A program made the translations under genes and the position numbers. The notes below the pieces were generated by a model. That model was not told the DNA's origin. It saw nothing but the letters and a program-made list of their open reading frames with translations, and made no database searches. Shown piece after piece: positions 1 to 1,080 of a DNA stretch of 43,978 nt (positions are counted from its first letter, which is position 1; each line of letters opens with the position of its first letter). The stretch is taken from the IMG/VR virus record IMGVR_UViG_3300028372_000015, positions 1 to 43,978 of that record; one strand, 5' to 3'. This stretch comes from a virus.

Positions 1-217
1 CGAAAACAATTTCGGTACGATTTTCAAATTCGTCGAAGTCGTCGAAGTCGTCTTCGTGAATGATTTCGACATTGCCATCATCCTCAGTAATAAGCTCCAT
101 ATCAATTGAAGTGCATCCTTCAGCACTTTGGCCATGGTCTGCGTATACATGCACTGAGCGCATACCATGCTCATTTTGTAAAGCTTTTAACCTATCAATT
201 ACCATTTGTGAATTCAT
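1..217 (-). CDS. Hypothetical acidic protein, C-terminus cut by window edge
   Basis: An open frame of 72 codons starts with ATG at 217 and runs off the left edge. A strong ribosome binding site (GGGGGAG) lies about 7 bases upstream of the ATG. The visible end is very acidic: a run of Asp, Glu and Phe (DDFDDFDEF) sits near residues 57-65. I do not recognise the family. It lies downstream of the tRNA-Arg gene on the same strand. Confidence 0.65.
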   Translation of the reverse strand, partial: MNSQMVIDRLKALQNEHGMRSVHVYADHGQSAEGCTSIDMELITEDDGNVEIIHEDDFDDFDEFENRTEIVF

Positions 218-272
218 AAAATCTCCCCCTGTGGAACCGCAAATAAAACATTATTGATGTCTCATGGTAAAA

Positions 273-348
273 TGGTCTGCCTTGAAGGATTCGAACCCTC
301 ACTCTAAGTTTAGAAGACTTATGTGCTGTCCTATTACACTAAAGGCAG
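273..348 (-). tRNA. tRNA-Arg, anticodon TCT
   Basis: Read on the minus strand this folds as a normal cloverleaf. It has a 7-bp acceptor stem (CTGCCTT with AAGGCAG), a D arm, an anticodon stem TAAGT/ACTTA with loop CTTCTAA (anticodon TCT), a 5-base variable loop, and a T arm GAGGG/CCTTC with loop TTCGAAT. The discriminator is A and CCA is encoded at 275-273. A TCT tRNA reads AGA/AGG arginine codons, a common supplement in T4-like phages. Confidence 0.92.
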
Positions 349-358
349 TTTTAAATGG

Positions 359-643
359 TTATTCTTTAATTTCAGTAGGCTGGGGCTGGGCAATTGCCCG
401 AACCAGTGCCATAAATCCCGTTTCAAGGTCAGTGCGCGCCATAGCAATCCAGCGGGAAGCTCGTGCGTTCCTGTAACGCTCTTTCTCACTTTGTTTACTT
501 AATGCTTTATTGATGAGATGCGTTTCGACGTTGCTTAGAAACGCCAGGCAACGAGCCTCAAGTTGTTTGGCCTCATTCATCAAGTCAATTTCTTCCTGAG
601 TCAGATCACGGTATCCGCTGATTTTAGTATGTTGATTATCCAT
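359..643 (-). CDS. acb2: Acb2 family anti-CBASS (cyclic-nucleotide sponge) protein
   Basis: This 94-residue protein fits the Acb2 (T4 Vs.4-like) family in length and pattern. The N-terminal part has GYRDLTQEEIDLMNEAK (about residues 10-26). The C-terminal part has the family-typical GFMALVRAIAQP (about residues 76-87), preceded by a helix with RWIAMA. Known Acb2 proteins are small helical hairpins that form hexamers in the host cytoplasm and sequester the cyclic di- and trinucleotides that activate CBASS effectors. Related hairpins occur in Tad1, the Thoeris antagonist. The start ATG at 643 has AGGAGAG upstream, and the tRNA-like RNA at 661-741 ends just before it, so gene and RNAs may share a transcript. 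Function is inferred from family resemblance; I could not run a profile search. Confidence 0.82.
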   Translation of the reverse strand: MDNQHTKISGYRDLTQEEIDLMNEAKQLEARCLAFLSNVETHLINKALSKQSEKERYRNARASRWIAMARTDLETGFMALVRAIAQPQPTEIKE

Positions 644-660
644 TGTGCTCTCCTGCTGTT

Positions 661-741
661 TGGTGGAGGTGTTCGGACTCGAACCGAATTCTTACGTGTT
701 CCCGCGATGGGCATTCACGCAATCGACGCCATGTCACCCCC
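661..741 (-). tRNA. Atypical tRNA (possibly Gly, anticodon GCC)
   Basis: On the minus strand there is a 7-bp acceptor stem (GGGGGTG with CACCTCC, one G-T pair), a perfect T arm (TTCGG/CCGAA, loop TTCGAGT), discriminator A and an encoded CCA at 663-661. The best anticodon arm is CGTGA/TCGCG with loop ATGCCCA, giving GCC (Gly). The stretch available for the D arm is only 15 bases and pairs poorly, and the variable region is unusually long at 14 bases. It is either a divergent phage tRNA or a decayed one; the anticodon call is tentative. Confidence 0.55.
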
Positions 742-787
742 AATAGTAGTAGTAGTGTGGTGGCTGGTGCATTCACCGCACTAAATA

Positions 788-884
788 GGACTCTGGTTGG
801 ACTCGAACCAACACCACCGGCAATGTCTCTCCGGTACACGTAGCTACGTGCTGACCTACAATGCAACCGTTACACCACAGAGCC
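788..884 (-). tRNA. tRNA-like RNA with extended acceptor stem, anticodon not assignable
   Basis: Read on the minus strand this has a 7-bp acceptor (GGCTCTG with CAGAGTC), a plausible D arm and a perfect T arm (GTTGG/CCAAC, loop TTCGAGT at 812-796). A strong arm ACCGG/CCGGT sits in the variable-arm position. No standard 7-base anticodon loop can be drawn: the expected place holds a 14-base palindrome (CACGTAGCTACGTG). No CCA is encoded. The pairing continues beyond the acceptor for about ten more bases on both sides (878-894 with 779-795), which ordinary mature tRNAs do not do. Length, 97 bases, suits a type II tRNA. It may be a pseudo-tRNA or a specialised tRNA mimic. Confidence 0.5.
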
Positions 885-922
885 CTAATTAGTGCCCTCG
901 AATATACCGTCGAAGGTTCGGT
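883..922 (-). ncRNA. Conserved hairpin module, copy 1
   Basis: On the minus strand the module reads ACCGAA, then a 7-bp hairpin (CCTTCGA, loop CGGTATAT, TCGAGGG), then CACTAATTAGGG. It runs directly into the tRNA-like RNA at 788-884. The same module recurs at 1017-1058 with different stem bases but preserved pairing and loop. Both stems pair fully only if read from the minus strand, where the odd pair is G-U; on the plus strand it would be an A-C mismatch. This implies transcription with the neighbouring tRNA. It could be a processing signal or part of a larger RNA. Confidence 0.65.
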
Positions 923-956
923 AGCGCGCCGACCGAGACTGCTCAATCCGCATAAC

Positions 957-1029
957 GCACTGAATAGGGGTTTATGTAGTGCTTATGGCCTTAGACCTAC
1001 CTCGGCTAACGAAAACCCCTAATTAGTGC
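957..1029 (-). ncRNA. Long-stem RNA enclosing a D-arm-like element
   Basis: A 17-base arm (957-973) pairs with 1013-1029 with one mismatch, so the minus-strand RNA has a stem of the form CACTAATTAGGGGTTT with AAACCCCTATTCAGTG. The loop contains AGCC...GGCC (1007-987), which looks like a type II tRNA D arm. There is no anticodon arm and no T arm. The outer part of the stem matches the outer stem around the tRNA-like RNA at 788-884, so the two are related units. It may be a deletion derivative of a tRNA. Confidence 0.55.
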
Positions 1030-1058
1030 CTCCTAGTTATACCGCTAAGAGGTTCGGT
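1017..1058 (-). ncRNA. Conserved hairpin module, copy 2
   Basis: On the minus strand this reads ACCGAA, an 8-bp hairpin (CCTCTTAG, loop CGGTATAA, CTAGGAGG), then CACTAATTAGGG. The loop core CGGTATA and both flanks match copy 1 (883-922), while the stem sequence differs with compensating changes. It leads into the long-stem RNA at 957-1029 just as copy 1 leads into the tRNA-like RNA. Confidence 0.65.
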
Positions 1059-1080
1059 TATCAAAACCATTGATCGGAAT

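Follow-up and report, generated by a model that had tools for sequence, protein, structure and literature searches.

What kind of RNA is encoded on the minus strand between about positions 1060 and 660 of the viral record IMGVR_UViG_3300028372_000015, and on what does selection act there? The window, that is the whole stretch of 43,978 nucleotides (nt) analyzed, is a fragment of a myophage whose nearest isolate is Alishewanella phage Slickus01/Slicko01 (44% helicase identity), and this part of its transfer RNA (tRNA) region groups several structured non-coding RNAs. A sequence-only reading had proposed two repeated modules with compensating base changes, each leading into a long stem, one of which encloses a tRNA-like RNA at 788-884. 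The tRNA-like body is present, but its boundaries are 788-885 and it is not a tRNA. It belongs to a family of phage RNAs, here termed F-A, that is real and under strong selection for pairing.

The 788-885 RNA has a tRNA acceptor, a D-arm with GG and a T-arm with the T-loop TTCRANT. However, a stem of 5 base pairs (bp) with a 7-nt loop, as in an anticodon arm, is found in none of the five F-A members, although the control tRNA-Arg shows one at once; in its place are a single strand and two hairpins. CCA is not encoded after the acceptor in the window, and its addition after cleavage is possible. Rfam 15 and ARAGORN register the RNA merely as a poor "tRNA". The match to RF00005 at 788-884 (31.1 bits) has 44 nt in place of 18, and ARAGORN calls the copies in close relatives "tRNA-??? 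(acgt)" and that in contig L185 "tRNA-Ala(cgc)".

Members of F-A were found with a pattern that enlarges the distance between D-arm and T-arm, and then with one built on the common core. These searches added three lineages, L132 (with L233), L185 and L234, giving five distinct members in different phages together with the window and the L094 clade. The carriers differ in gene content: L132 has O-like replication and anti-repressor genes, L234 has RecT/RecE, and L185 a primase/helicase. In the alignment of the family (A2), the common core consists of the D-arm GGTGTAACGGTNNCATT, the single strand TTNNAGGYYA, the hairpin 2 loop RGAGRCNNTG and the T-arm, while hairpin 1 is variable in sequence and the acceptor sequence is not conserved. 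The 26-pair structure is paired in 98.4% of cells, with 10/26 pairs altered on both sides; such changes occur in the acceptor, hairpin 1, hairpin 2 and T stems. Covariation is 0.508, against 0.149 in shuffled alignments (0/500) and at most 0.117 when the structure is slid. With the covariance model, members score 96-113 bits and ordinary tRNAs up to 42. The 788-885 RNA carries the covarying five-helix fold, the TTNNAGGYYA core and the RGAGRCNNTG loop. Thus, the proposal that an RNA structure is under selection on the strand of the tRNA is supported by strong covariation of the tRNA-like part, once distant copies are aligned. The family is probably undescribed so far; a description of its core was found neither in Rfam 15 nor in the literature searched.

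Outside these lineages, the exact F-A pattern gave two matches in one genome per species from 84,980 bacterial and archaeal species, both by chance and apparently coding. The relatives' 98-nt version of the RNA was not found in plasmids, Alishewanella phage Slicko01 lacks F-A, and BLAST of the region against phages gave no real match. The candidate in contig L113 (44.8 bits) was not counted as a member, being barely over ordinary tRNAs; directly upstream of its F-A-like RNA lies a structured cloverleaf-like RNA (L113:797-911, z -3.4). Aeromonas phage phiA8-29 has an unannotated tRNA-like RNA with a 17-bp extended acceptor between tRNA-Thr and tRNA-Pro (L232:2393-2566; 79301-79454, minus strand), which is at most a candidate for F-A, its 32.2 bits falling within the tRNA background. 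A further T-arm-bearing RNA lies just downstream of it. L234:3250-4125 holds several more T-arm-bearing RNAs with large interiors; in one of them, for example, the acceptor TGACATG/CATGTCA encloses over 100 nt.

Close relatives of the unit were expected from the sequence-only reading, and they exist. The pattern CGGTATAN{5,12}GCACTAATTAG, run on 2.9 million viral contigs, matched four contigs, all from a single clade (L007/L093, L008, L009/L094 and L011/L095) plus one chance match. Positions 771-922 are present in this clade as a sharp-edged 152-nt block with 96% identity, whereas most other proteins in common reach no more than 26-36% identity; thus, the region was probably exchanged recently. 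The block is identical among the clade members compared, and the six substitutions that separate the window from them lie in loops or at an unpaired site, or preserve pairing. Window positions 1-348 are also found in the relatives (92-94%), in rearranged order, and just 1-237 where tRNA-Arg is missing. A TnpB-like gene occupies the place of this tRNA in L094 (4877-5968) and L095. Sub-cut-off Rfam HgcC matches in both contigs mark the 3' end of this gene, which probably represents the omega RNA, and were rejected as related RNAs.

The two modules lie on the minus strand at 883-922 (A) and 1017-1058 (B), where they had been placed. Module A reads ACCGAA-CCTTCGA-CGGTATAT-TCGAGGG-CACTAATTAGGG from 922 to 883, and module B reads ACCGAA-CCTCTTAG-CGGTATAA-CTAGGAGG-CACTAATTAGGG from 1058 to 1017. 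They share the flank ACCGAA, the loop CGGTATAW and the trailing CACTAATTAGGG, while their stems differ with pairing intact on this strand (7/7 in A, 8/8 in B). Two pairs are altered on both sides (U-A to C-G, G-C to U-A), two further pairs on one side, and one pair is gained; when stem arms are swapped between the modules, 5-6 of 7 pairs survive. Coming from just two distinct copies, this compensation gives modest support that is suggestive and not, as the sequence-only reading had judged, strong. By themselves the modules lend moderate support, since module A is the same in the relatives and so adds no covariation.

In both modules, the loop opens with CGGU, to which ACCG of the flank is exactly complementary, with 2 nt preceding the stem and 4 nt following CGGU. 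This layout fits an H-type pseudoknot whose first loop is short, whose second loop is absent and whose second stem measures 7-8 bp. Counting both strands, the 44-kb window has 181 hairpins with a 7-8 bp stem and a loop of 8 nt; a match of the ACCG/CGGU type occurs in only four places, two of which are modules A and B. Each module is thus probably an H-type pseudoknot, as predicted from its pairing, and ACCG/CGGU pairing of this kind would explain the constancy of flank and loop next to a variable stem. In unit A there is an alternative partner for ACCG (922-919), CGGT at 778-775, and this pairing would close the unit instead of forming the pseudoknot. Fold z-scores are -2.6 for module B and -0.3 for module A.

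Long outer stems around both elements had also been described, and they are present (16/17 pairs in A, 14/16 in B). Stem A prolongs the acceptor outward, so the 3' end of the 788-885 RNA is paired and has no CCA next to it. Such an extension is shared by the window and the L094 clade, occurs independently in L132 and probably also in L113; it is not seen in L185 or L234. Long stems of this sort are enriched in the window but not unique (8 seen, against a shuffle mean of 1.3 and a maximum of 7). The claimed restriction of full pairing to the minus strand applies to the modules (6/7 and 7/8 pairs on the plus strand) and to stem A. It does not apply to stem B, which has U-U and A-C mismatches and, by inspection, pairs one position better on the plus strand (15/16).

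Element B shares the 5' module and the outer stem with the 788-885 RNA, while its interior differs and has no T arm; thus, the same frame is reused for a second cargo. It had been called D-arm-like at 957-1029. The motif GCCGAGGTAGGTCTAAGGC is indeed present, but it is the sole basis for this name and is shown by the D-arm of any class II tRNA. Neither unit B nor the minimal transfer-messenger RNA (mini-tmRNA) described below was found in the relatives' clade, and GAGGCAGGTCTAA, which lies upstream of the unit in L094, was rejected as a copy of element B, being partly coding and folding no better than shuffles. Fold z-scores are -3.3 for 957-1029, -2.45 for 780-896 and -1.9 for the whole of 660-1075, and by themselves are insufficient to settle the case.

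Features of the locus in the window. Parts are given in minus-strand order where they are paired.
Feature	Position	Strand	Parts	Evidence
tRNA-Arg (TCT)	273..348	minus		Rfam
Acb2-type protein	359..643	minus	94 amino acids	PF24729 Acb2_Tad1_hairpin, 64.4 bits
Mini-tmRNA	661..741	minus	G3-U70, A73, CCA	tmRNA tRNA-like domain
CGGTGAAT, 3' border of conserved block	771..778	minus		relatives' alignment
Outer stem A	779..894	minus	894-878 / 795-779, 16/17 pairs	acceptor stem extended outward
tRNA-like RNA, family F-A	788..885	minus	acceptor 8 bp; D-arm 875-861; single strand 860-852; hairpin 1 ~851-836; hairpin 2 ~835-816, loop RGAGRCNNTG; T-arm 812-796	alignment A2, covariation, covariance model
Module A, predicted H-type pseudoknot	895..922	minus	S1 ACCG 922-919 / CGGU 909-906; S2 7 bp, 916-910 / 901-895	pairing; identical in four relatives
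Element B	958..1028	minus	stem 1028-1013 / 973-958 (14/16) around 39-nt interior	
Module B, predicted H-type pseudoknot	1029..1058	minus	S1 ACCG 1058-1055 / CGGU 1044-1041; S2 8 bp, 1052-1045 / 1036-1029; loops L1 AA, L3 AUAA	pairing, z -2.6

The neighboring features are all on the same strand as the 788-885 RNA. Scanning the whole window with Rfam 15 at gathering thresholds recovers tRNA-Arg alone, and a sensitive scan of 200-1300 adds the mini-tmRNA and the weak tRNA match. Promoter and terminator scans of the minus strand gave nothing exceeding chance. The Acb2-type protein is 44-50% identical to Pseudomonas phage proteins, including that of JBD67. Acb2/Tad1-hairpin proteins are a family of sponges against the cyclic-oligonucleotide-based antiphage signaling system (CBASS), and the gene directly adjoins the non-coding RNA cluster.

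The mini-tmRNA matches RF00023 with 48.4 bits (cut-off 47) and has G3-U70, the GGNNTCGA loop and a T-arm; the mRNA-like domain with the tag frame is missing, and a short hairpin of 11 nt stands in place of 304. A pattern search found the same architecture in 12 viral contigs. In 11 distinct mini-tmRNAs, the window's included, covariation is 0.711 against 0.186, and G3-U70 is present in 11/11, although the search pattern left U70 free. Examples are L101:6510-6591, L103:1742-1820, L104:2042-2123 and L105:2847-2929, with others in L102, L106, L108, L109, L110, L111 and L112, and unannotated mini-tmRNAs are present in the Streptomyces phages LuckySocke (L253:291-371) and BRock (L258:279-359). Matches such as those in Pseudomonas SM1, Caulobacter CcrBL9 and Ruegeria RpAliso were rejected, as these are ordinary two-piece tmRNAs.

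The same plan recurs in another family, F-1, in which AAGTCCGAGA-hairpin-GGAGTAGGC-hairpin separates D-arm from T-arm and no anticodon arm is present. It is found in at least 16 distinct contigs (L114, L117, L120, L123, L131, L141, L164, L172, L173, L195, L196, L201, L205, L215, L222 and L230), and for 10/19 of its predicted pairs at least one sequence shows changes on both sides. F-1 RNAs often lie within large tRNA clusters, and their covarying hairpin has a small loop. A third group of odd tRNA-like RNAs has a GTAGTCGCAGTAATGTAGACCC core (L115, L118, L129, L152, L175, L191, L194, L213 and L219), and ARAGORN miscalls some of these as tRNA-Cys or tRNA-Tyr.

What might the 788-885 RNA do? The reading that we favor, at a probability of roughly 0.55 and judging from sequence and predicted structure, is that of a stable, module-protected tRNA mimic that acts in trans without decoding, possibly in counter-defence. 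The RNA retains the elbow formed by the acceptor, T- and D-arms of tRNA, with the conserved single strand and two hairpins in place of the anticodon arm. The pseudoknot module and long stem may shield it from exonucleases or flag it for processing. We infer that it does not decode because it has no anticodon, its acceptor sequence is unconserved and its 3' end is buried in a helix. The mimic would occupy a protein that recognizes the elbow, candidates being enzymes for processing or modification, translation factors and defence nucleases that target tRNA, and the conserved hairpin 2 loop may confer specificity. Counter-defence or translation takeover seems the likeliest setting, since the Acb2-type gene and the mini-tmRNA adjoin. 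Some points weigh against parts of this picture. The pseudoknot is unproven because its ACCG/CGGU stem never varies and so yields no covariation; the members in L185 and L234 are without the extended acceptor, so that a lack of aminoacylation may not be general; and the counter-defence setting depends on one neighbor, Acb2, in one genome.

The frame around the RNA could instead act in cis, with modules and stems serving as processing or stability signals of a polycistronic tRNA or early transcript and the body being merely an RNase P- or RNase III-like substrate. The same frame around two different cargos, 17-bp stems plausible as RNase III substrates and neighbors all on one strand would fit this. 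However, it is the interior core that is conserved most across unrelated phages, while the frame is restricted to one clade, and a cis-acting role is therefore rather unlikely. The sharp edges and 96% identity of the 152-nt block in otherwise diverged phages with rearranged neighbors, and the TnpB-like gene near the unit in L094, would fit a mobile DNA cassette, in which the repeated inverted ends would be recombination or transposition sites and RNA folding incidental. This is improbable, as both modules and the D-stem retain G-U pairs on one strand, the tRNA-like helices show compensatory changes, distant members have no repeats, and TnpB replaces tRNA-Arg instead of flanking the unit; the argument from strand is limited by the slightly better pairing of stem B on the plus strand.

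An unusual functional tRNA, freed by RNase P and decoding for example a four-base codon, or decoding after removal of an insert, would agree with the ARAGORN calls and the 31-bit Rfam match. It is equally improbable, given that the 5-bp/7-nt arm occurs in no member, the anticodons called by software disagree between members and the acceptor in the window has no CCA following it. Remnants are frequent in phage tRNA clusters, and element B, which has no T arm, is possibly a decaying tRNA remnant. For 788-885, a pseudogene is largely excluded by the strong covariation of F-A, whose anomalous core is conserved in five lineages, and decay is the least probable of these explanations.

Beyond the trans-acting mimic favored for 788-885, it may be speculated that F-A, F-1, the mini-tmRNAs and others belong to a broad, largely unannotated class of anticodon-less tRNA-like decoys encoded by phages and directed at the host's quality control of translation and at immunity that targets tRNA, several of them clustered here with an Acb2-type gene. 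In annotation pipelines, such RNAs end up among poor or undetermined tRNAs, and thus more are probably hidden in existing phage genomes. As F-A is conserved across unrelated phages and has a fixed core that can be mutated, it makes testable the role of tRNA-like RNAs of the T4 type, which have been left without a function.

Among known RNAs, F-A resembles tRNA of RF00005 in its acceptor, GG D-arm and T-arm (31-37 bits, over the cut-off of 29), but differs in the absent anticodon arm and the different 44-nt core. It shares with tRNA-Sec (RF01852) an 8-bp acceptor with a 5-bp T stem and an extra hairpin; however, the relatives score 25 bits, under the cut-off of 47, and have no UCA anticodon arm. 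Like the pseudo-tRNA "tRNAOther" of Bacillus cereus, the product of a bacterial island gene that is described as a predicted tRNA not working in translation (PMC3399842), it is tRNA-like and predicted as a tRNA. The closest precedents are the T4 species 1 and 2 RNAs and the tmRNA-domain RNA of mycobacteriophage DS6A. Northern blotting has confirmed T4 RNAC, which like RNAD is a late RNA with a function yet unknown (PMC9697503). Like F-A in the window, species 1 and 2 (rnaC, rnaD) are non-coding RNAs in a phage tRNA cluster near tRNA-Arg, and rnaC (species 1) also ends in a tRNA-type T arm. No sequence similarity was detected, and the F-A model misses rnaC and rnaD (L231), matching T4 tRNAs only. 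DS6A encodes an RNA consisting of the tmRNA domain only, and strong inhibition of tmRNA has been reported for a similar molecule, which may titrate SmpB (PMC4131195, PMC11915505). According to these papers, the DS6A RNA is an anticodon-less tRNA half. It is of the same kind as the 661-741 mini-tmRNA; F-A differs in having a D-stem and two middle hairpins, no tmRNA D-loop and no constant G3-U70. Thus, stable tRNA-like RNAs of phages are already known as a kind from T4 and DS6A, and it is the core of F-A that is probably new.
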